Below, one piece after another: positions 346 to 12,091 of a stretch of 29,794 bases of DNA. The notes under the pieces are model-generated. The model worked only from the letters and a program-made list of their open reading frames with translations, was not told where the DNA came from and searched no databases. Location of the stretch: positions 72,555-102,348 of the IMG/VR virus record IMGVR_UViG_3300020204_000022. The stretch is one strand, 5' to 3'. The stretch is from a virus. Every line of letters starts with the position of its first letter. Position 1 is the stretch's first letter. The position numbers and the translations under genes are program-made.

Positions 346-1710
346 ATGATAAAATTAATTATTTTCGATCTTGACGGTGTTCTTTTAAATTCTAAAAAGT
401 TGCACTTCGATACTTTGAACGAGGCCTTGGGTCCTCAATTCTTAATTTCATGGGAAGAACATCTTGCAAAATTTGATGGTTTGAAAACAAATCAAAAATT
501 AGATATTCTAACGCGGGAAAAGAATTTAAATCCTTCTGAACATAAATCAATTTGGGAGAAAAAACAAAAATTGACAGCACAGTACTTAAAGAACCTAAAT
601 CAAGATCATAAATTAATTCATCTTTTCCAATCTCTTTCAAATTCCGATTATAAGATAGCGGTTTGTTCCAACTCAATTCGAAAAACGGTTTTGATCACCA
701 CGTCAAAGTTGGGAATTATAGAATTTCTTGATTTAATTTTATCTAACGAGGATGTTAGAAATAGCAAGCCCCATCCAGAAATTTATTGGTCCGCTATTTC
801 TTCCTTCGGTTTTACCCCAGAAGAAACTTTAATCGTTGAAGATTCGCCGTATGGGTTATTGGCAGCTTCACGTAGCAATTCCAATGTTCTTCGAGTTTCC
901 GGACCAGAAGAAGTAACTTTAAAAAATATACAATCTAACATAGAAAAAATAAATAAATCAAAAAACAAAATCATCCATAAGTGGAAGGAAGAAAAGTTAA
1001 ATGTTTTGATTCCCATGGCTGGAGCGGGAAGTAGATTCCAACAAGCTGGTTACACTTTCCCAAAGCCTCTGATTGAGGTAAATGGGAAACCGATGATTCA
1101 GGTGGTTGTCGAAAATTTAAATTTGGATGCACATTACATTTTTGTTGTTCAAAAATCACACAGGGAAACTTACAATTTGGATTCATTGTTAAAATTGATT
1201 GCACCGGAATGTGATATTGTTGAAACGGAAGGAATTACGGAGGGAGCAGCTTGTACCGCTCTACTGGCCAAATCTTTTATTGATAACGACCAACCTCTCT
1301 TTTTTGCCAACTCTGATCAATTTGTGGAATGGGATTCCATAGAGTTCATGTACAAAATGAACGAAACACAGGCTGATGGCGGAATGGTCACCTTTGAAGC
1401 CACACATCCCAAGTGGTCTTTTGCTAAATTAGATTCTAGTGGATTGGTAACAGAAGTAGCAGAAAAAAACCCAATTTCTAACGTAGCTACTGTAGGATTT
1501 TATTTTTGGAAAAAAGGTTCAGATTTTGTTAAATATGCAGAATCTATGATACAAAAGGAAATTAGAGTCAATGGGGAATTTTATGTTTGCCCTGTTTTCA
1601 ACCAGGCCATAAAAGATGGGAAAAAAATTATTAATTACGAGATTCAAAAAATGTGGGGACTTGGTACTCCTGAAGATTTAAAATTTTTCTTGGAAAATTT
1701 TGGAGATTGA
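346..1710 (+). CDS. HAD phosphatase - sugar nucleotidyltransferase fusion
   Basis: Two-domain protein of 454 residues. Residues 1-205 are a HAD-superfamily, beta-phosphoglucomutase-like phosphatase or mutase: motif I DLDGV with nucleophile D8, motif II around VCSNS 106-110, the motif III lysine in SKPHP near 141, and the acidic pair of motif IV at E165/D166. Residues 218-454 are a GT-A-fold nucleotidyltransferase with the glycine-rich loop GAGSRF at 226-231, the PKP motif at 239-241, and an NSD metal site near 324. Families of this kind dephosphorylate a sugar phosphate and transfer a nucleotide to sugar-1-phosphate, making an activated sugar. A one-protein fusion would couple successive steps. 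The substrate cannot be read from sequence. The stop overlaps no functional downstream start; the lipoprotein begins 60 bases later. Confidence 0.85.
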   Translation: MIKLIIFDLDGVLLNSKKLHFDTLNEALGPQFLISWEEHLAKFDGLKTNQKLDILTREKNLNPSEHKSIWEKKQKLTAQYLKNLNQDHKLIHLFQSLSNSDYKIAVCSNSIRKTVLITTSKLGIIEFLDLILSNEDVRNSKPHPEIYWSAISSFGFTPEETLIVEDSPYGLLAASRSNSNVLRVSGPEEVTLKNIQSNIEKINKSKNKIIHKWKEEKLNVLIPMAGAGSRFQQAGYTFPKPLIEVNGKPMIQVVVENLNLDAHYIFVVQKSHRETYNLDSLLKLIAPECDIVETEGITEGAACTALLAKSFIDNDQPLFFANSDQFVEWDSIEFMYKMNETQADGGMVTFEATHPKWSFAKLDSSGLVTEVAEKNPISNVATVGFYFWKKGSDFVKYAESMIQKEIRVNGEFYVCPVFNQAIKDGKKIINYEIQKMWGLGTPEDLKFFLENFGD

Positions 1711-1974: not shown

Positions 1975-2003
1975 ATATCATAAAACATAGATAGGTTTTT
2001 GTC

Positions 2004-2010
2004 TATAATA
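2004..2010 (+). promoter_or_regulatory. TATA-like element before FkbM gene
   Basis: TATAATA follows the terminator directly and ends 3 bases before ATG 2014. A gene placed after a terminator needs its own promoter, which supports this site, although so short a gap to the start would give an almost leaderless transcript. Confidence 0.3.
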
Positions 2011-2013
2011 ATT

Positions 2014-2946
2014 ATGGAAAATATTACTTGTAGTTTGTCTGAATGTAGGACTATTTTAACTTTTCATAATAGTGGTGAAGAGAATTTCTTTTCTAATTTT
2101 GCTATATATGATAATGTTTATAATTTATTTGTAAGTGAAGGATGGGTAAGTGTTCCACCTTACGGATATACTAATTTCGAGATAGGTAATATTTTATCAA
2201 ATGCCTTTGATGATGTAAATTTCAAAGGTATCAGAATTTCTTTATTTAATGATAAAGGAGAAAAAAAAGAATATATCATAGGAGACAATTCTTCGAAAGA
2301 AAAATATTTCTATTATAATTCTTTAAATTCTTTGGAGGGACTATTGAGTTGGAAAAATAATGTATATGATGAGGTTTTTTTGGAAACTGATGTTATATAT
2401 GACTTGGGTGCAAATATCGGTATGTATTCATTATGGGTACTCGAACACACTATATCTAAATGTTATTGTTTTGAACCTGATCCTTATGTATTCAATTGTC
2501 TGGAAAAAAACTTAAAAAAATTCACTAATACGAAATGTTTCAATATTGCTATATCTGATAAAAATGGGTTTTCTGATTTTGGTGTAAGTGGTATTCATGA
2601 CGTAGGAAGCTCATTGAATTATAAAAATAATGTTAAAGAGTGGATTAGTATAGAAACTATAAATCTTGAAGATTGGATAAAAAAAAATGACCATACGCCG
2701 CCTACAATTATCAAATGTGATATAGAGCAAGAAGAATGGAACTTTCTAGATAGCTTATCTGATGATTTTATAAAAAGTTTGAGGTACATAATAGTAGAAT
2801 TTCATTGTTTTACAGATGATAAAAAAGAATTACACAATTATATTATTAGATTCTTAGATTTGAATTTTAGTTGTAGAAATATTCCAGGTTTGCATTATCC
2901 GGGATATCACAAAACCCTAAAATTCGTAAATTTAAACTACAAATGA
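2014..2946 (+). CDS. FkbM-family methyltransferase
   Basis: 310-residue protein, starting at ATG 2014 rather than the TTG at 1999. An N-terminal region of about 100 residues, probably beta-rich, precedes a class I SAM-dependent methyltransferase domain. Motif I is DLGANIG near residue 130, an acidic EPDP follows near 155, and the typical FkbM carboxy motif appears as IKCDIEQEEW near 235. FkbM enzymes O-methylate sugars or other hydroxyls, which fits the glycan genes nearby. The gene is notably AT-rich, stands alone between two identical terminator repeats, and is followed by about 100 noncoding bases. This looks like a separately acquired cassette. Confidence 0.85.
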   Translation: MENITCSLSECRTILTFHNSGEENFFSNFAIYDNVYNLFVSEGWVSVPPYGYTNFEIGNILSNAFDDVNFKGIRISLFNDKGEKKEYIIGDNSSKEKYFYYNSLNSLEGLLSWKNNVYDEVFLETDVIYDLGANIGMYSLWVLEHTISKCYCFEPDPYVFNCLEKNLKKFTNTKCFNIAISDKNGFSDFGVSGIHDVGSSLNYKNNVKEWISIETINLEDWIKKNDHTPPTIIKCDIEQEEWNFLDSLSDDFIKSLRYIIVEFHCFTDDKKELHNYIIRFLDLNFSCRNIPGLHYPGYHKTLKFVNLNYK

Positions 2947-3608: not shown

Positions 3609-4385
3609 TTGAAAACATTTCAAAAGCCCTCACAAGCCATAAAGTGGGCTAAGGAAAAATTGATTGACTACGGGTATGTTGTACAGACAGAAAGATGGCA
3701 GGGTATATCTTCCCCCGACGACATGTGGGAAACATTAAATACTTCTTTCTCTATGTTTGTCCCTCACACACTCGAAGGACTACGTGATGAGGTCAGACCT
3801 AATCTTCCCTGGGCGGACGATCACTTTGAAGAAAGAATCGGGGGCCAGCCGCTGAATCCACCCCCTTCTAACGAATGGTGGCCTTTCAACCAAAAGAAAA
3901 ATGCCCAATTCAAAACAGAGGAGAAATTTTCTCACACCTATCCGGAAAGACTTTGGCCGAAATATGCTTCAGATGTTCCAAATTCCATCATGGGAGGAAT
4001 TAGATATCAGTACGGGGACTTTGGAGACGTTATCAATTTGTTGCAAAAAGAGCCTTTTACCAGACAAGCTTTTCTCCCAATGTGGTTTCCTGAGGATACT
4101 GGATCTGTCCACGGGGAAAGAGTTCCTTGCACAATCGGCTATCATTTTATGAGAAGGTCCAATTACCTTCACATTGTGTATTACATCAGGTCCTGTGATT
4201 ATCTTCGCCACTTTAGGGACGATATCTATATGGCATGTCGGAAAGTTTTTTGGGTTCTAGAAAAATTAAGGGAAAAAAATCCCGAATCTTGGGGCGAGGT
4301 TAAACCTGGTTTTTTTACCATGCACATCACTTCTTTGCATTGTTTCAATAAGGAGAAAGAAGTGCTGAAACAAAACAATAAATGA
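3609..4385 (+). CDS. thymidylate synthase-fold enzyme, probable dCMP hydroxymethylase
   Basis: 258 residues, similar in length to thymidylate synthase and T4 gp42. The catalytic cysteine is C174 in VPCTIGYHF, the phosphate-binding RS-D motif is R194-S195-C196-D197, and SLHCF (242-246) matches the carboxy-terminal substrate loop. At the position where thymidylate synthase has the base-reading Asn (N177 in E. coli) this protein has D205, in FRDD. T4 dCMP hydroxymethylase, as I recall it, has FRND with Asp at this place, and also Cys-Thr after the nucleophile. The reaction would therefore be dCMP plus methylene-tetrahydrofolate to 5-hydroxymethyl-dCMP. No in-frame ATG fits; TTG 3609 is used. The stop overlaps the next ATG by four bases, so it is coupled to the glycosyltransferase-like gene. 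A TS-like enzyme making another base is the alternative. Confidence 0.75.
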   Translation: MKTFQKPSQAIKWAKEKLIDYGYVVQTERWQGISSPDDMWETLNTSFSMFVPHTLEGLRDEVRPNLPWADDHFEERIGGQPLNPPPSNEWWPFNQKKNAQFKTEEKFSHTYPERLWPKYASDVPNSIMGGIRYQYGDFGDVINLLQKEPFTRQAFLPMWFPEDTGSVHGERVPCTIGYHFMRRSNYLHIVYYIRSCDYLRHFRDDIYMACRKVFWVLEKLREKNPESWGEVKPGFFTMHITSLHCFNKEKEVLKQNNK

Positions 4386-5461
4386 AAAAATTTTGTGTTA
4401 TAATTGACGCATATCCACAATCAGAGGAGGATCAGAAAATTCTATTGGATAATCTTTTGATTTTCAAAAAGAATAACATAGACGTTCTACTTACAAGTCA
4501 CCATCCGTGTACTCCCGAGATTATTGAAAACACTACTTATTTTATTTTTGAAAAGAAAAACAATTATCATTTCTTAGATTCTGACGTTTTGAATTACAAT
4601 TTGGATGGTGTAGAAAATCCAGTTTATTTGAGTTATCTTCAAATAGGAAACGAAATGTTTAGAGACCATATAGTTGTAGCTGGTTGGTCAGTTTCTATTG
4701 TTTCTCAATTTGTCAATTCAATTAAATTTTTGTGGTCGAAGGAATATGAATTTGCCTTTTATTTTGTTGGAGATTTTAAATGTCCGGGGAATATTCAACA
4801 AAAATTCTCTGAAATTTTTTCAAATTTGGGAGATCACAAAAATTTCTTTATAAAAAATAATCCAAATTTCAGTAGCTGGTATTGTCCACATCTTTTTGGA
4901 TTCACTTTGGAAGAAAGTTTGATTAAAAAAATTCCAAATTTTGATTTTTCTGATAATTCGAATTTTCAAAAGCTTTTTCCAAATTGTTCTCTTGAAGATG
5001 TGATGCTAAAACTTTTTGGTGAAAATAAAAATCTAGTCTATGAACATTCTGAGATGGATAAATTTTTCGGATCTGGAAATTGGAATAAAGTAAGTTCTAT
5101 TATAAAACCTGGACCAAGCGCTTTACATTTCAACACAACTTCTTCTCTATTCTGGAAGGAAGATCTATCAGATTGTTATTTACTTTTTAATGTTCAACAT
5201 GAATGTCCCTTTGACAACGTCAGGTTTATAGTTGATATTGTAAACCAAAGTTCGAAATCAATTTTTAGTCGGGATATGATTCTTGGAAGGGGTGGATGGT
5301 ACAAAGAGAAATTGAATAACTTATTTTCCGATGGAGAAAGGGTAATATTTAATAAGAAAATACAAGATGTAGAAGAAACTTGTTTCTTTTCAGATTCTAT
5401 AAATATAAGAAATACAAGTTTAAAAAAATATACATCTTTGAAAAACTATTATGAAATTTAA
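4382..5461 (+). CDS. glycosyltransferase-like protein
   Basis: 359 residues, no membrane segment. The first 60 residues (a beta strand ending in IIDAYP, then a helix, then IDVLLTSHHP) and the later strand FAFYFVGDF resemble large phage and viral glycosyltransferases with a GT-A-type nucleotide-binding core. A clear DxD sugar-nucleotide motif is not obvious, so the assignment is moderate. The start ATG 4382 overlaps the stop of the dCMP-hydroxymethylase-like gene (ATGA), suggesting coordinated translation and a linked role, for example in decorating a hydroxymethylated base or a phage glycan. Confidence 0.5.
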   Translation: MKKFCVIIDAYPQSEEDQKILLDNLLIFKKNNIDVLLTSHHPCTPEIIENTTYFIFEKKNNYHFLDSDVLNYNLDGVENPVYLSYLQIGNEMFRDHIVVAGWSVSIVSQFVNSIKFLWSKEYEFAFYFVGDFKCPGNIQQKFSEIFSNLGDHKNFFIKNNPNFSSWYCPHLFGFTLEESLIKKIPNFDFSDNSNFQKLFPNCSLEDVMLKLFGENKNLVYEHSEMDKFFGSGNWNKVSSIIKPGPSALHFNTTSSLFWKEDLSDCYLLFNVQHECPFDNVRFIVDIVNQSSKSIFSRDMILGRGGWYKEKLNNLFSDGERVIFNKKIQDVEETCFFSDSINIRNTSLKKYTSLKNYYEI

Positions 5462-5463
5462 CA

Positions 5464-5529
5464 ATGGATAACTCTTACAACTTAAATTTAGAAGGAATAA
5501 TTGGAGGACATCTTAAAACTCTTTATTGA
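5464..5529 (+). pseudogene. N-terminal piece of CmcI-like gene, ended by TGA
   Basis: ATG 5464 opens a frame that stops at TGA 5527-5529 after 21 codons and then continues, in the same frame, into the CDS at 5575. The residues around the stop (LY-stop-GI, then CPFD and YQ) follow the pattern of the CmcI family's amino end, in which a Trp-Gly pair and a Pro-x-Asp precede the SAM motif. The TGA therefore sits where TGG (Trp) would be expected. A point nonsense change is the simplest reading. Confidence 0.65.
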
Positions 5530-5574
5530 GGGATTAGAGCGGAAAAATGTCCTTTTGATTATGTTTTATATCAG

Positions 5575-6105
5575 ATGTTGATTAATGAAATTCAGCCAGA
5601 TTTGATTATAGAGATAGGTACTAATTATGGAGGATCATGTCTTTATTTGGGTGATCTTTTAAATTCTATAGGTAAAGGTATGGTTCATACTATTGACATT
5701 CAGGAAGATTCTTTTTTTTCAAATTCAGAAGAAAAGAGAGGTTTAATTACACGTCATCCAAGGATTCAAAGATTTTTGGGAGGTTATCAAGAATATAACT
5801 TAGATTATGCATCTTCCTTTAAAAAAATTATGTTGATTGAAGATGGGTCACACAATTACTCGGACACTTTGGGTGTTATGAACAAATTTAAGGATATAGT
5901 AAACGAAGATTCTTATATGATCATAGAAAATGGAAGTGTTAACTGGATGGGAATTGAGCAGGCTTATGAAGGTGGTCCACTTAAAGCTATTGAAGAATTT
6001 TTGCCGCAAAATCCGCAATTTCAAATAGATAGAAAATGGTGCGATTTTTATGGTTACAATGTTACTTTCAATCCTAACGGTTATCTAAAAAAAATTAAAA
6101 TTTGA
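5575..6105 (+). CDS. CmcI/rhamnosyl O-methyltransferase-like protein, 5' end interrupted
   Basis: SAM-dependent methyltransferase of the cephalosporin hydroxylase (CmcI) family. Motif I is IIEIGTNYGGS near residues 11-21, followed by an acidic HTIDI strand, EDGSHNY near 95-101 and the strand MIIEN. Family members methylate sugar hydroxyls. The intact protein would start at 5464 and have about 213 residues, but an in-frame TGA at 5527 cuts it. What remains translatable begins at ATG 5575 (or upstream by readthrough) and keeps the whole SAM-binding core, so it could still be active. Spacing and strand place it in the glycan gene block. Confidence 0.75.
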   Translation: MLINEIQPDLIIEIGTNYGGSCLYLGDLLNSIGKGMVHTIDIQEDSFFSNSEEKRGLITRHPRIQRFLGGYQEYNLDYASSFKKIMLIEDGSHNYSDTLGVMNKFKDIVNEDSYMIIENGSVNWMGIEQAYEGGPLKAIEEFLPQNPQFQIDRKWCDFYGYNVTFNPNGYLKKIKI

Positions 6106-6115
6106 AATTATTTTC

Positions 6116-6763
6116 ATGATAGTTGTAGCAACTCACGATTCAATAAAATTTCTTCACCTTTCAATTAATAACATGAGAAAAGTGAATTTAAATGGACATC
6201 GGGTTTTGTTCATTGATACTAATTCTAAAGATATTGAATTTAAGAAAGAATTTGAAATAGCTAAAAATAATAATCCCGAATTTTTATTCGAAAGTCTGGA
6301 CTATACTTGCTGGGACAGCGGGGCATATATTTATGCTTTTGAAAAATATAAAGCGGATTCTTATATTTTTTTACAAGATTCTTTAGAAATACTTGATAAA
6401 GATTACATTTGTTGTTTTGATGATCAACTAAAAAATTTTGATGTAATTGGGCATTTCCCCTTTGATTATTTTTACGATAATGAAGAACAAAAGATTTGGG
6501 TGGAAAGCGATATTAAATTCGATTCATATCCAAAACATGGGATTTTTGGACCAATTTTTGCCGCGACTAGTAATATTTTAGAAAGATTGCCGAAAGAATG
6601 TATAAAATACCCAACGAATAAAAATCAAGGATGTGGTATGGAAAGAAGATGGTCTCTTATGTTTCATTCTATAGGGGCAACTAAAACATATTTGGAAAAT
6701 GATGATTTGTGGAAAAAATTTTCCGAAAAATATATTCACAAACATTTCCCAACGAGACTATAA
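6116..6763 (+). CDS. glycosyltransferase-like protein
   Basis: 215 residues. The opening strand IVVATHD, a second strand RVLFIDT, a WDSGAY motif near 66-71 and SYIFLQDS near 83-90 match the layout of GT-A-fold phage glycosyltransferases, where a central acidic motif binds the sugar nucleotide and metal. No signal or membrane segment. It follows the CmcI-like gene by 10 bases and is followed by a 140-base gap containing a decayed gene start. Donor and acceptor are unknown. Confidence 0.55.
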   Translation: MIVVATHDSIKFLHLSINNMRKVNLNGHRVLFIDTNSKDIEFKKEFEIAKNNNPEFLFESLDYTCWDSGAYIYAFEKYKADSYIFLQDSLEILDKDYICCFDDQLKNFDVIGHFPFDYFYDNEEQKIWVESDIKFDSYPKHGIFGPIFAATSNILERLPKECIKYPTNKNQGCGMERRWSLMFHSIGATKTYLENDDLWKKFSEKYIHKHFPTRL

Positions 6764-6779
6764 ATTGTAAATTTCAACG

Positions 6780-6833
6780 ATGAAAAAATTAGTTCTAATT
6801 AGTTCTCATTGTGATTCTGAAGCTAAACAATAA
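6780..6833 (+). pseudogene. remnant of a glycosyltransferase gene start
   Basis: A 17-codon frame beginning MKKLVLISSHCDSE ends at TAA 6831. The opening looks like the first strand of glycosyltransferase-like proteins in this block. The rest of the gap to 6905 has no usable frame. It is best read as the stump of a deleted gene, although a true micropeptide cannot be excluded. Confidence 0.4.
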
Positions 6834-6905
6834 AAAATTAAAAAATTTCCAGGAAACATCATAACAAAAAAATCTATAATCATTTCATAAGACAGGATTT
6901 ACAAA

Positions 6906-7577
6906 ATGAAAAAAAACATTTTCGAATATTATAATATGGATGAAAATCTTGGTGGTTTATATCCATATCGTCAACATTTTATAAAAAGTTGGTCAACTGA
7001 TATACCATACATAAAAAAATACATAGAAGAAAAATTTACGGATAACCAAATTGGAAGAACAATAGTTGAAATAGGAGTTCAGGGGGGTGGTAGTTTACTT
7101 AAGACTTTTGACCTCATAGAAAATAAAAACGTTAAGCTTTTTGGTATAGACGTTTGGGAAAATGGAGGTGGTGGTTGTAACGGTCAGCCGATGGATTTTT
7201 TCACAGAAGAAAGCCTCGATACGATTGACCAATTGCTGAAAGAGTGCAGAACCAATCTACTGGATATTCTTTCCATATATGACCATAAAAACCAAGTGGA
7301 ATTAATTCACGGATCATCTAGGGACCAAAATGTAATATCCAGATTTGATGATAGGTCTATTGATCTGATTTACATTGATGGGGATCATAGTTTCCAAGGA
7401 TGTTATCTAGATTTAGTTAATTGGTACCAAAAAGTTAAAATTGGTGGTTGTATCATAAATGATGATTACGCAGACGAAAGATTCGAAGTTAAAAAAGCTG
7501 TTGATCAATTTTTGGAAGATATAGGTCAGAAAGATTTATTTTTCAATGGTTGGCAATCTTGTTTCATAAAGAAATGA
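6906..7577 (+). CDS. class I SAM-dependent methyltransferase
   Basis: 223 residues. Motif I is TIVEIGVQGGGSLL near 52-65, followed by FGIDVWE near 79-85, and the conserved IDLIYIDGDHSFQG near 153-166 with GGCIINDDY near 178-186, the pattern of the Methyltransf_24 family. These proteins methylate sugars or small molecules in polysaccharide gene clusters. It lies between glycosyltransferase and aminotransferase genes with 21 bases to the next start. The substrate is unknown; a sugar hydroxyl is the likely one from context. Confidence 0.8.
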   Translation: MKKNIFEYYNMDENLGGLYPYRQHFIKSWSTDIPYIKKYIEEKFTDNQIGRTIVEIGVQGGGSLLKTFDLIENKNVKLFGIDVWENGGGGCNGQPMDFFTEESLDTIDQLLKECRTNLLDILSIYDHKNQVELIHGSSRDQNVISRFDDRSIDLIYIDGDHSFQGCYLDLVNWYQKVKIGGCIINDDYADERFEVKKAVDQFLEDIGQKDLFFNGWQSCFIKK

Positions 7578-7598
7578 GGAACTTTTCAAATCGATAAT

Positions 7599-8258
7599 AT
7601 GGCAAACGGAGTTTATAAAATTACCGAGGATTTCGAAAAATCATTATCGGATTACACGGGTGCACCCTATGTGATATGCCTTGATAACCAAAGTAATGGC
7701 CTTTTTCTTTCTCTATATTACGAACATTATGTTTGTAAAACTTTAACTAGGGATACAATAACAATACCATCGAGGACTTACCCATCAGTTCCTTGTGAAA
7801 TAATACACGCTGGTCTCAAAGTTCAATTTGAAAAAGTTAAGGGTAAAACTCTAAAAGGTGCCTATAACCTTATAGGTAGTAGAGTTTGGGACTCGGCCCT
7901 TAGATTTACTGCAGATATGTATATCCCCAATACATTTATGTGTGTTTCTTTCACTGGACCATATAAACACTTCAAACTTTCCAAAGGTGGAGCCATTTTG
8001 ACTGATGATTATGATGCTTATTTGTGGTTTAAAAGAGCAAGATATTCAGGAAGAAGAGAATGTTCTTATCACGACGACCACTTTGATATGATTGGATGGA
8101 ATTTTTATATGATCCCCGAATTGTCAACAAGAGGTTTACTTCTAATGGGACAATTTTACAACTCAGATGGTAGAAAAAAAAATAATCCAGACCTAGAATT
8201 ACCTTATCCGGATCTTTCTAAATTCGGAATTTACACATCTCATAATACTCAATCGTGA
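7599..8258 (+). CDS. compact DegT/DnrJ/EryC1/StrS-family aminotransferase
   Basis: PLP-dependent sugar aminotransferase fold. The amino end (EKSLSDYTGAPYVICLDN) and TIPSRTYPSVP near 55-65 are typical, D98 in VWDSALRF is the expected cofactor-contacting aspartate, and K123 in SFTGPYKHF lies seven residues before GG, where the PLP-binding lysine of the family stands. The family adds an amino group to keto-sugars such as GDP-4-keto-6-deoxymannose. At 219 residues it is much shorter than the usual 360-400, lacking most of the small C-terminal domain. It may work as a minimal enzyme or be a degraded one. The stop overlaps the next GTG start. Confidence 0.8.
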   Translation: MANGVYKITEDFEKSLSDYTGAPYVICLDNQSNGLFLSLYYEHYVCKTLTRDTITIPSRTYPSVPCEIIHAGLKVQFEKVKGKTLKGAYNLIGSRVWDSALRFTADMYIPNTFMCVSFTGPYKHFKLSKGGAILTDDYDAYLWFKRARYSGRRECSYHDDHFDMIGWNFYMIPELSTRGLLLMGQFYNSDGRKKNNPDLELPYPDLSKFGIYTSHNTQS

Positions 8259-9511
8259 AACTTAAAATATTAGTTTTTCCTTGTGGTAGTGAAATTGGAT
8301 TAGAAATTTTCAATTCGTTGAATTCCATCAAAAACATAGAATTGTTTGGAGCTAGTAGTGTTGATGATAATGGAAAATTTGTTTTCCAAAATTATTTTGG
8401 AAATATTCCAATGCTTCATGAAAAAAATTTCATAGATTCAATTAAAAATTTAGTTTCTAAAAATAAAATAGATTACATTTATCCTTGTATGGATATAGCT
8501 ATTTTGAAATTAAAACAACACGAAAAAGAAATTGGATGCAAAATAATAAGCTCCCCTATTGAGACTGTCATAATTGCTTCAAGAAAAAGTTTAACGTATT
8601 CTAAATTAAAAAATATTATAAGAACACCAAAAATTTTATCTCCGGAAAAACCAGAATTCCCCATGTTTTCTAAACCAGATGTGGGGTCAAGCAGTAGAAA
8701 CACTCTTAAAGTTAATGATCCATTGGATCTTCAATATTCTCGCAAATTATATCCAGAGAATCTTCTTTTAGAATTTCTTCCGGGGGAAGAGTTTACTGTG
8801 GATTGCTTTACCGACAGAAATAGAAAACTTTTGTTCATTGGACCAAGAAAAAGAAAAAGAATTTCAAATGGAATCAGTGTTGGAACCGAAGAAATTGTGG
8901 ACATAAAAATAACGGAAATTGCACACAAGATAAATAATTCCATGATATTCAGTGGGTCTTGGTTTTTCCAGTTAAAAAAGGATAAAAATGAAGAATATTG
9001 TCTTTTAGAAATTGCGTGCAGATTTGGTGGATCTTCCGTTCTTAACAGAATTAAGGGAGTGAATTTTTCACATCTTAGCTTATTGAATGAATTTCAAAAT
9101 GTTCAAATTTTAAAAAATAATTATGATGTAGAAATTGGAAGAAGTCTGGATATTAAATGTAAAAGCAAATTAGAATATTCTAAAGTTTATATTGATTTCG
9201 ATGATACAATCATTATAAATAATGAAGTTAACCTGGATGCAATAAGATTTTTATATGACTGTTTCAACCGAGGGGTAAAGATTATCTTGATAACTAAACA
9301 TAAATATCCAATTAAAGAAACTTTGAAAAAATTCAAAATTCACGAAAGTTTATTTCATAGCATAATACAAATTCAACACTCGGATTCAAAATTCAATTAT
9401 ATAGAAAGTCAAGAATCAATATTCATCGACGATTCTTTCAAAGAATTGATGGATGTAAATAAAAATTTAAATATTCCAGTCATTTCAGTAGAAAACATAA
9501 AACATCTATGA
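8255..9511 (+). CDS. ATP-grasp - HAD fusion protein
   Basis: 418 residues beginning at GTG 8255, overlapping the previous stop by four bases. Residues 1-300 are an ATP-grasp protein of the carbamoyl-phosphate-synthase type: a Rossmann-like pre-domain, KPDVGSSSR near 140-148 as the ATP-binding loop, LLEFLPGEEFTVD near 171-183, and LEIACRFGG near 251-259 with the metal-binding acidic residue. Residues 309-418 are a short HAD phosphatase with DFDDT (D314, D316), LITKH near 345 and FIDDS near 390. ATP-grasp enzymes ligate a carboxylate to an amine or other nucleophile. Fused to a phosphatase in a sugar cluster, it may attach an acid such as an amino acid to an amino-sugar. That role is inference. 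Confidence 0.8.
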   Translation: MKLKILVFPCGSEIGLEIFNSLNSIKNIELFGASSVDDNGKFVFQNYFGNIPMLHEKNFIDSIKNLVSKNKIDYIYPCMDIAILKLKQHEKEIGCKIISSPIETVIIASRKSLTYSKLKNIIRTPKILSPEKPEFPMFSKPDVGSSSRNTLKVNDPLDLQYSRKLYPENLLLEFLPGEEFTVDCFTDRNRKLLFIGPRKRKRISNGISVGTEEIVDIKITEIAHKINNSMIFSGSWFFQLKKDKNEEYCLLEIACRFGGSSVLNRIKGVNFSHLSLLNEFQNVQILKNNYDVEIGRSLDIKCKSKLEYSKVYIDFDDTIIINNEVNLDAIRFLYDCFNRGVKIILITKHKYPIKETLKKFKIHESLFHSIIQIQHSDSKFNYIESQESIFIDDSFKELMDVNKNLNIPVISVENIKHL

Positions 9512-10047
9512 ATAAAAAAATTGTTAGTGAATTAGATAACAAAAATCTTTTAATCATTAGGGAAAATGTTTCTAATTTCATTCGTGATCTCAGCTTAAAT
9601 CACGACCTCAAGGAAAATCGGGTTTTAGATATTGCTCCACAGAAATATTTAGGAGTAAAAGAATTTTTCAAAAATTCAAAAGTTTCCACTTTAGATATAG
9701 ACCCAAATTCTGGAGCTGATTATATATGTGATATTTGTGAAAGTAATCATCATTTAATACCAGATGAAACCTTTGATTTGGTTGTTTGTACAGAAGTTTT
9801 AGAACACGTCAATAACCCATTTCTTGCGGTTCAAGAACTACATAGAATCACAAAAAAAGGAGGTTTTGTTGGATCTTCTACCCCATTTAATTTCAGAATA
9901 CACGGACCACTCCCGGATAATTGGAGATTTACAGTTCACGGTTTGAATATTTTGTTTCAGAATTTTGAAAAGGTTGAAATTTCGGGAGTAGAAGATCCAG
10001 AAAGAAATTTGATGCCTATTCATTATACCATTTGTGCAATAAAATAA
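9508..10047 (+). CDS. type 11 SAM-dependent methyltransferase
   Basis: 179 residues. Motif I (RVLDIAPQKYLG near 38-49), the acidic TLDIDP near 61-66, and the diagnostic post-motif FDLVVCTEVLEHV near 90-102 define a Methyltransf_11-type enzyme. GSSTPF and an HG-PDN-RF segment near 135-145 are also typical of polysaccharide-cluster methyltransferases. The ATG overlaps the stop of the ATP-grasp/HAD gene by four bases, so the two are coupled. The GxGxG loop is partly substituted, but the fold is clear. Confidence 0.85.
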   Translation: MNKKIVSELDNKNLLIIRENVSNFIRDLSLNHDLKENRVLDIAPQKYLGVKEFFKNSKVSTLDIDPNSGADYICDICESNHHLIPDETFDLVVCTEVLEHVNNPFLAVQELHRITKKGGFVGSSTPFNFRIHGPLPDNWRFTVHGLNILFQNFEKVEISGVEDPERNLMPIHYTICAIK

Positions 10048-10049
10048 AA

Positions 10050-11042
10050 ATGACAAAAAGAGCATATATAACCCACGTTACTGAGGAATATCTACCAGTT
10101 GCAAGAAATCTGGGGAAATCTTTAAAACTTTTTTCCGATTTAAATCTTTTGATTTATGTTCTAAATGCAAAAGAAAAATCCGATCAATTTTTTTCGGATT
10201 TGGAAAATGTTAAAATCAGAAATATTAATTTAAATTTAGAAAATTCATCTTCGAACGATTACACTTTTAATCCTTCTGGTAATTTTTACATCGATAGATC
10301 GAGATCTAGAATTTATAAAATTCTTTGTGCTAAAACTTTGGCTATGGAAATGGCTTTAGAAGAAGGATATGAAGAAATTTGCTACTTAGATTCTGATTGT
10401 ATTGCTACCCCTGTGGTGGATGAACTTTTCAACTGGATGAATTTAGTTACAGATTATCCCATTGGTACTGCAGGAATTCACGAGTACATGATAATCATAG
10501 AATCTAATGGATATCAAAGGGGGAATCCATTCGAAAATACCTGGCCTGAGGCAGATCACAAAAAAACTTTAGAATGGCCTTTGATGGAATTTTTACAAAT
10601 GCCAGAAGGATCTAGAGGAAACTACAGAACCACCGGGATTATGCTTATGAACAAAAATTGTTTACCTTTCATTAAAATTTGGAGCGAATTTTGTTTTATT
10701 CTGCCAAAACTAAATTTGAATTTAAACCATCTTGCAGCTTATCACGAAGAAACTATTTACAACGTTCTATCCTGGAAAAAAACAAATATAGGGTTTCCTC
10801 TCTGTTACATAAACTTGAGAGAAGGTTTGACCACAACAAAACACTTTTACGAAGAAGGACAACCTGGATTTTCTACCTGGATGACCGAAGAAAACCCAGA
10901 TTATTCTTTAAATTTTTATTCTATACCACCAGAAAAAAGAAATGTGAAAGTTCTCCATGGGGAAAAGAGGTCAGATGAAGCTGACCTAATTTTACAATAT
11001 CTCACAAAATTGAAAGATGCCAGATTCTTTGAAAGCTTCTAA
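10050..11042 (+). CDS. glycosyltransferase with DSD motif
   Basis: 330 residues from ATG 10050; the in-frame TTG at 10032 would lie inside the previous gene. The core CYLDSDCIATP near 115-125 has the DxD motif that binds metal and nucleotide-sugar in GT-A-fold, GT8-like enzymes. An RxxxIYKILCAKTLAME helix precedes it and an acceptor-side TTGIMLMNK follows, with a late VLHGEK. It resembles the protein at 21991, which has WLDSDC. The start of the next gene lies inside its last codons (26-base overlap). Confidence 0.75.
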   Translation: MTKRAYITHVTEEYLPVARNLGKSLKLFSDLNLLIYVLNAKEKSDQFFSDLENVKIRNINLNLENSSSNDYTFNPSGNFYIDRSRSRIYKILCAKTLAMEMALEEGYEEICYLDSDCIATPVVDELFNWMNLVTDYPIGTAGIHEYMIIIESNGYQRGNPFENTWPEADHKKTLEWPLMEFLQMPEGSRGNYRTTGIMLMNKNCLPFIKIWSEFCFILPKLNLNLNHLAAYHEETIYNVLSWKKTNIGFPLCYINLREGLTTTKHFYEEGQPGFSTWMTEENPDYSLNFYSIPPEKRNVKVLHGEKRSDEADLILQYLTKLKDARFFESF

Positions 11043-11775
11043 TTTAGATTTATCTCTGTTAGTTCACACCTGTGATGCTTATCAAAAATTTTGGGGCGGG
11101 ATGTTATATTCACTCGATTTTAATTGGGACTATGATTTTGTCCCTGTTTTTTGGGCTAGTGAAGAAATCAACATTCACGAAATAGAAATGGATTGTCGGG
11201 GTTTACGTTATGAACCAAATAAAAAAATCACGACCATATTGACCGGAAAAACTGATAAAAATGGGTTTTCTAACAGGATGAAAATTGCCTTAGAAAAAAT
11301 TCATTCCAAATGGGTTATTTACATTCAGGAAGATATGTGGCTAATTTCCTATCCAGGAAATGAAATTCTACAGAAGTTGGTCAATTTTGCAGAAAATCAA
11401 AATGCAGATGGGATAAAAATTCACACAAAGTTACATTATTATGATGGATATGTTTTAGAATACACCCCATTCAAAATTGGGGGAGTTGATATTCTAAAAT
11501 ACTCACCAGGTGAAAATTATTTACACACCCACAATGCAACAATTTGGAATCGAGAATATTTAATTCAAAATCTTGTTGACGGAGAAGATCCCTGGACTAA
11601 TGAGATAAACGGTTCGAAAAGGATGTGTCAAAAACCACACAACCATTTTCATTATAATATACATTGGTATTCTCAACCTGGAATTTGTGAGATGGGTCAA
11701 GAATCCAGAGATTTTTTCACTTTAGCCCCTATTTTGGATGATAGAATGTCCTTGAAATTGAAATTCAAAAAATAG
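11017..11775 (+). CDS. glycosyltransferase-like protein
   Basis: 252 residues. LLVHTCDAYQKFWGGML at the start and VIYIQEDMWL near 98-107 follow the pattern of GT-A-type phage glycosyltransferases where an acidic E-D motif takes the DxD place; HTHNATIWNREYL near 168-180 is a plausible acceptor loop. No membrane segments. It overlaps the preceding gene by 26 bases and is the last gene of the sugar block. The substrate is unknown. Confidence 0.6.
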   Translation: MPDSLKASNLDLSLLVHTCDAYQKFWGGMLYSLDFNWDYDFVPVFWASEEINIHEIEMDCRGLRYEPNKKITTILTGKTDKNGFSNRMKIALEKIHSKWVIYIQEDMWLISYPGNEILQKLVNFAENQNADGIKIHTKLHYYDGYVLEYTPFKIGGVDILKYSPGENYLHTHNATIWNREYLIQNLVDGEDPWTNEINGSKRMCQKPHNHFHYNIHWYSQPGICEMGQESRDFFTLAPILDDRMSLKLKFKK

Positions 11776-11824: not shown

Positions 11825-12091
11825 ATGGTGAAAATTTTCAGAGAGATTAAAAAACCCACGGATTCTTTGTTGTTGCACTACCAGGATCAATTCATCAGAA
11901 ATCAAAACAAGTGGATTAGAAAATCTAAATTGACCCCAGAACATTTGCATCACGAATTCAAGATGGGTAAAACAAAATACAATCTTCGTGGGAGTTTAAA
12001 TCCAACAGAATTTATTCTTGAAGAAGTTGGTACCGGAAAATTTTTTATCGTAGATTCTCATCAGGTCGATTCTTGTATTTTGAAATCCTAA
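11825..12091 (+). CDS. hypothetical protein, 88 aa
   Basis: Basic, soluble protein of unknown function starting at ATG 11825, 49 bases after the sugar block. An AATAAATACATG string with TATA-like character lies at 11779-11791 in the gap. No motif is recognised. It is tightly followed, after 4 bases, by another small gene on the same strand. Confidence 0.55.
   Translation: MVKIFREIKKPTDSLLLHYQDQFIRNQNKWIRKSKLTPEHLHHEFKMGKTKYNLRGSLNPTEFILEEVGTGKFFIVDSHQVDSCILKS

Follow-up and report, generated by a model that had tools for sequence, protein, structure and literature searches.

A gene at positions 3609..4385 (+ strand) of the window, the 29,794-nucleotide stretch of viral DNA analysed here (G000:C1:72555-102348, the final 29.8 kb of a virus record of 102 kb, hereafter the contig), encodes a 258-residue protein with a TTG start that falls in the thymidylate synthase (TS) superfamily, in the clade of phage family PHROG 160. 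The protein is probably a divergent TS homologue that acts specifically on deoxycytidine monophosphate (dCMP) and modifies C5 of the base, while the sugar-related genes that follow it would form a separate, exchangeable glycan cassette. Modification of cytosine at the dCMP stage, giving DNA with modified cytosine, is likely because a cytosine-type enzyme and a dCTPase are encoded on the same contig. An earlier note on this DNA, made from the sequence alone, had proposed a dCMP-hydroxymethylase-like enzyme coupled to a pathway that adds an elaborate aminosugar to hydroxymethylcytosine (hmC).

Relatives of the enzyme

The earlier placement of the protein in the TS fold was upheld by family searches. 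PF00303 matched residues 138-199 only and fell short of the family cut-off (E=2e-4), and PHROG 160, a phage family named 'thymidylate synthase', matched at E=2e-26. Relatives were found in at least 110 records of the phage collection, at below 60% identity, and in 79 environmental viral loci of IMG/VR; among the phage matches listed, nearly all are labelled thymidylate synthase. The same clade includes proteins of Gordonia, Serratia, Brevundimonas, Streptomyces and other phages (41-47% identity), and the active-site signature was identical in the four named phages checked.

A profile built from 22 relatives was compared with solved structures. The CMP hydroxymethylase MilA (5b6d, 5jnh) ranked first (1.6e-6), followed by Lactobacillus casei TS (3e-5) and T4 gp42 (2.5e-4). 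MilA shares the cytosine-reading Asp; however, its substrate is CMP, within an antibiotic pathway, and its alignment with the profile spans the C-terminal half only. An AlphaFold2 model of the enzyme had a mean pLDDT of 78 and a pTM of 0.80, with uneven confidence along the chain. When this model was submitted to Foldseek, the best match was AfhB, the dCMP hydroxylase of phage HY126 (9iqu/9iqc), with TS and MilA close behind. The closest solved structures are cytosine enzymes: MilA leads the profile comparison, and both AfhB and MilA stand near the top of the fold ranking. AfhB is essentially the same protein as RB69 ORF048 (E=4.5e-162, all 238 residues covered), and in RB69 and its relatives (Mosigvirus) a TS-superfamily enzyme yields 5-hydroxy-dCMP at the mononucleotide stage (PMC13390438).

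A tree kept four groups apart, namely the window clade, gp42, the RB69 type and TS, with support of 100/99 for the window clade. The branch of this clade measures 4.16 changes per column, and as a caution against long-branch effects the order of grouping was not used. As judged from sequence, the enzyme represents a fourth clade of the superfamily, far from TS, gp42 and RB69/AfhB; it is about 18% identical to gp42 and lies on a separate long branch. Membership in the classic gp42 type was rejected, given this separation and the missing equivalent of Glu60 in the alignment. The earlier description as dCMP-hydroxymethylase-like thus stood as far as a cytosine-type TS homologue is concerned, but not in its grouping with gp42.

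Active site

The active site was evaluated in a joint MAFFT alignment of 65 window-clade, 56 gp42, 15 RB69-type and 60 TS sequences. Asp205 occupies the position of the uracil-reading Asn of TS and was invariant in 76/76 environmental relatives, as was the nucleophile Cys174, which was also present in 65/65 aligned members. The residue after the nucleophile is Thr in 56 and Ser in 9 of the 65, and His in TS. This combination of Asp205 with Thr or Ser at 175 is the pattern of gp42 and the RB69 type. An Asp at the base-reading position turns TS to dCMP and marks the TS homologues of cytosine-modified phage contigs, and in the MetaGPA study this position and the one following the Cys separated cytosine-modified from unmodified contigs (PMC8670742). 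The earlier note had correctly read Asp205, Cys174 and the Cys-Thr pair, and the cytosine-type specificity that it proposed is well supported by these conserved residues.

Besides Asp205 and Cys174, the residues Tyr111, Arg152, Arg194, Ser195, Asp197 and His244 were invariant in the 65 aligned relatives. Cys174, Tyr111, Arg152, Arg194, Ser195, His244 and a Trp at 68 are common to all four aligned sets. The enzyme shares the TS fold of T4 gp42 (PDB 1b5e, 6a9b) and has equivalents of its Cys148, Asp179, Thr149, Tyr96 and Asp171. The folate-contact Asp197 (in RSCD) is kept in the window clade, whereas the RB69 type has Asn (RSxN). Trp91 was likewise invariant in the joint alignment, although that column moved once the four named phages were added.

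Accessory nucleotide genes

A dCTPase resembling T4 gp56 is encoded on the same contig outside the window (genome 46926-47414, phmmer 8e-20), a feature shared with the T4 gp42 system. The 230-kb relative G003 has a copy at 138285-138767 (phmmer 3e-20) that is 82% identical to that of the contig (G000), and the T4 gp56 query found one protein in each of the two. Weak PF08761 matches, in open frames of similar length, were found in 9 of 14 related records, including most of the larger relatives. The earlier note had seen neither a dCTPase nor a hydroxymethyl-dCMP kinase in the window; the dCTPase is present elsewhere on the contig, and the kinase is considered below. A dCMP deaminase is encoded in G003, G007, G008, G012 and G013, and ThyX was not found in the 14 related records. 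A homologue of the T4 beta-glucosyltransferase was found in neither G000 nor G003, and the T4 alpha-glucosyltransferase (AGT) had no match in 12 records in a search that was run without a working positive control.

The 219-kb Sphingomonas phage PAU has a gp56 homologue of 42% identity and also a TS homologue of the RB69/AfhB type (L298:1165-1872), which suggests glycosylated or bare 5-hydroxycytosine in its DNA.

A carbamoyltransferase of the NodU/TobZ type lies at genome 68333-69946 (L005:11333-12943). The presence of a cytosine-type TS and a carbamoyltransferase on one contig recalls the 5-hydroxymethylcytosine (5hmC) carbamoyltransferase system (PMC8670742); however, the gene lies 6.2 kb upstream of the enzyme, among sugar genes, and its relatives are mostly NodU-like genes of cyanophages. 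It was found in 3 of the 14 related records, twice in G009. A partnership of this kind was rejected on account of the cyanophage relatives and the absence of the gene from most related records.

Proposed pathway and its difficulties

By analogy with T4 gp42, Cys174 would attack C6 of dCMP, and Asp205 would recognise and protonate the cytosine ring. The substituent added at C5 would probably be a hydroxymethyl group, although the differences in the active site leave room for hydroxylation or another product, so that hydroxymethylcytosine is a guess. The gp56-type enzyme encoded outside the window would eliminate dCTP. A phage or host kinase would convert the modified dCMP into its triphosphate, which the polymerase would incorporate into phage DNA instead of cytosine. 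In one sub-lineage, a glycan cassette would have been inserted beside the enzyme gene.

Several observations weigh against this proposal. The catalytic Glu present in every sequence of TS, gp42 and the RB69 type aligns with Asn65 in the window clade, where the position is Asn in 59, Asp in 5 and Ser in 1 of the 65 members. The loss matters because T4 Glu60 (TS Glu58) activates methylene-tetrahydrofolate (PMC6400193). Asn65 was assigned in the joint alignment, in a second alignment that also took in the four named phages, and when profiles were aligned pairwise with gp42 and TS; each of these was anchored on the neighbouring invariant Trp, at the level of sequence only, and the confidence of the model is moderate in that region. 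Moreover, Gln153 replaces the Arg (Arg124 of gp42) and His201 replaces the Gly (Gly175 of gp42; Val in the RB69 type), both peculiar to the window clade, and Phe246 stands in place of the Tyr (Tyr218 of gp42), a change shared with the RB69 type. Together with Asn65 for Glu, these replacements mean that one-carbon chemistry is not assured. Homologues of gp56 are widespread among T4-like phages (1371 records), and the dCTPase therefore supports base replacement but does not prove it. A deoxynucleoside monophosphate kinase of the T4 type (gp1/DNMK) was unmatched in the 14 records, several of which are fragments, and the sole phage candidate is a gene of the adenylate kinase family at genome 51622-52341 (PF00406 4e-35). 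On these searches, the lineage of the window seems to differ from the T4 system in this kinase as well as in the beta-glucosyltransferase. Additionally, a DNA glycosyltransferase could be hidden among the unassigned genes.

Possible alternative activities of the clade

A tentative possibility is that the enzymes of the clade catalyse a reaction at C5 of dCMP unlike those of TS, dCMP hydroxymethylase and the flavin-dependent dCMP hydroxylase. The product would be an undescribed cytosine modification, and in many small phages the enzyme may work together with a second TS-like protein encoded directly upstream. The clade enzyme of small phages differs in setting from that of the window and lies in a cluster with a thymidylate-kinase-like protein, an NTP pyrophosphatase or dUTPase, a dCMP deaminase and a DNA polymerase. 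Such neighbours suit modification of dCMP more readily than synthesis of dTMP, although these genes could also help to supply dTMP. Directly upstream of the enzyme, small phages encode a protein of 224-375 residues (L085:5190-6047, L086:6192-7001, L295:6093-7001, L296:2909-3679 and the environmental loci L041-L084). The arrangement Cys-(18-27)-Arg-Ser/Thr/Ala-(9)-Asp, near the spacing of TS, was present in 26/33 aligned upstream proteins compared with 5% of shuffled copies; the 33 proteins are mutually related, so that the counts are not independent. Comparison with TS profiles gave weak matches (best E=0.008). The upstream protein is possibly a second TS-like subunit, and it was not found in the lineage of the window.

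It is rather unlikely that the product of the clade is 5-hydroxy-dCMP, formed with the help of a flavin as by RB69 ORF048/AfhB, instead of 5-hydroxymethyl-dCMP. AfhB was the top structural match of the predicted model, and the clade profile scored as well against the RB69 group (4.6e-10) as against gp42 (3.7e-9). The two enzymes also share the superfamily, the cytosine-reading Asp and the Cys-Thr pair, and Phe246 stands where the RB69 group has Phe for Tyr209. However, the model is of uneven confidence and MilA and TS rank close to AfhB, the tree separates the groups, and the diagnostic residues go the opposite way: AfhB retains the Glu but lacks the folate-contact Asp and the Trp, whereas in the window clade Asp197 and Trp91 are retained and the Glu is missing. 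Assignment to the AfhB type on the strength of the Foldseek match was for this last reason not adopted.

Probable independence of the glycan cassette

The enzyme gene is kept in 75 loci, while most genes of the sugar block occur in a handful. In 13 relatives (L010-L017, L019, L021-L024), only 7-849 bp separate the enzyme from a conserved core gene (the equivalent of the window gene at 11825..12091, + strand, or its neighbour), and this gap holds at most small open reading frames (ORFs) or one ORF of 196 residues. The gap is 2.5 kb in L018 and L020. In the group of the window it is 7.4-9.4 kb, and its contents differ among close relatives. The core gene at 11825, which directly follows the enzyme gene in relatives without the cassette, marks the right border of the insertion. 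The GC content is 30.6% in the block, 42% in the enzyme gene and 37% in the first 68 kb of the contig. Furthermore, homologues of the last two cassette genes, 10032 and 11017, adjoin in a 476-kb contig (62% and 52% identity) in which the clade profile did not detect the enzyme, although that contig may be incomplete.

Because the block sits at an indel, contrasts in GC content and has its last two genes in a contig with no detected enzyme, it is better read as a separately acquired, exchangeable glycan cassette of hypervariable content, next to a conserved gene for cytosine modification. The cassette would most likely serve to make a surface or virion glycan. The coupling of an aminosugar pathway to the enzyme, as first proposed, was thus not borne out. 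The fallback offered with it, in which a pathway for a virion glycan lies next to an ordinary hmC gene, comes closer, except that this is no ordinary hmC gene.

That the enzyme is nevertheless a classic gp42-type maker of hydroxymethyl-dCMP, and that the adjacent block builds an elaborate aminosugar and attaches it to hmC, is improbable. Asp205, the Cys-Thr pair, Asp197 and Arg203 match gp42, the dCTPase is on the contig, and in RB69 the sugar-nucleotide genes adjoin the gene for 5-hydroxy-dCMP synthase (PMC13390438). The start of the 4382 gene overlaps the stop of the enzyme gene, and selection in an arms race could make DNA-sugar genes variable. However, this explanation has to accommodate the missing Glu60 equivalent and the separate clade, the absence of the block 3' of the enzyme in the 13 relatives, the occurrence of its last two genes where no enzyme was detectable, and the negative glucosyltransferase searches described above. 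The overlap itself, reported in the earlier note, is present with an ATG at 4382, but it is not a conserved feature, since L007, L008, L038 and L009 have a further gene in between.

An ordinary thymidylate synthase making dTMP, as the public labels of the relatives have it, is very improbable: one genome paper counts four genes as involved in making thymine (PMC10353413), and a supply of dTMP would be compatible with the kinase, dUTPase and deaminase found as neighbours, but Asn177 of TS is Asp in all aligned relatives, His147 is Thr or Ser and Glu58 is Asn, and ThyX accompanies the clade enzyme in the named relative ctfzr933.

If the clade modifies dCMP, the DNA of the phages that encode it is probably modified and thereby resistant to restriction and Cas enzymes. 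The signature of Asn for Glu, Gln for Arg, His for Gly and Phe for Tyr is a simple finder for further members, and the question is testable now, since members occur in phages with named hosts (Gordonia, Serratia, Streptomyces, Brevundimonas).

Genes of the cassette and its surroundings

All genes of the window described here lie on the + strand. The first cassette gene (4382..5461, 359 residues) had no family match and appears glycosyltransferase-like by eye alone. Its product is weakly similar (15-19% identity) to other phage-encoded proteins of the contig and of G003, and its AlphaFold2 model (pLDDT 53) was too poor for a fold search. A 215-residue protein (6116..6763), also glycosyltransferase-like by eye alone, had no Pfam or PHROG match. 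The gene at 10032..11042 (336 residues), the most widely shared of the cassette, is glycosyltransferase-like and matched GT8 only at E=0.08, and the last cassette gene (11017..11775, 252 residues) had no family match. The four glycosyltransferase-like genes of the earlier note therefore lack a significant family match. For the products of 4382, 8255 and 10032, no matching record was found in the phage collection.

The three methyltransferases named in the same note are supported by Pfam: one like CmcI and rhamnosyl O-methyltransferase (5575..6105, PF04989 E=4e-24), one of the Methyltransf_24/TylF type (6906..7577, PF13578 E=6e-15, PF05711 E=1e-7) and one of the Methyltransf_11 family (9508..10047, PF08241 E=3e-10). 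The supposed DegT aminotransferase (7599..8258) does match the DegT/DnrJ family (PF01041 E=4e-9, residues 7-86), but it has 219 residues, and the match covers 80 residues of a 360-residue family whose full-length members have about 360-390. A full-length DegT protein (386 residues) is encoded in the same cassette of L007 and L009. The short gene is probably not decayed, because a 208-residue version is kept in L009 at 78% identity. In the proposed ATP-grasp/HAD fusion (8255..9511), the ATP-grasp part was confirmed by Pfam (PF15632 E=2e-15), while the C-terminal HAD-like stretch is visible just as a DxDxT motif by eye.

Sugar-type genes continue upstream of the enzyme and include a cupin and the carbamoyltransferase beyond the window. 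Within the window these are a fusion of HAD phosphatase and nucleotidyltransferase (346..1710, PF13419 E=1.5e-30, PF00483 E=7e-12) and, in the upstream variable region, an FkbM-type methyltransferase (1999..2946, PF05050 E=3e-11).

Genome setting

Inspection by eye of the rest of the contig showed a family B polymerase, a gp32-like protein, a primase, a UvsW-like helicase and a ribonucleotide reductase, that is, replication of the T4-like kind, as well as large tail proteins. The source virus is a large T4-like phage, and the 102-kb contig is a fragment of its genome. Most of the contig is syntenic with G003, the record from which L038 derives. The large subunit of the ribonucleotide reductase (genome 48457-51473) is seemingly split, by eye, by an intein-like stretch whose own frame is broken near 49645-49677. 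Furthermore, two adjoining and very alike genes at genome 60054-61697 and 61719-63377, each encoding about 550 residues, were noticed by eye; the pair is a recent tandem duplication of unassigned function.

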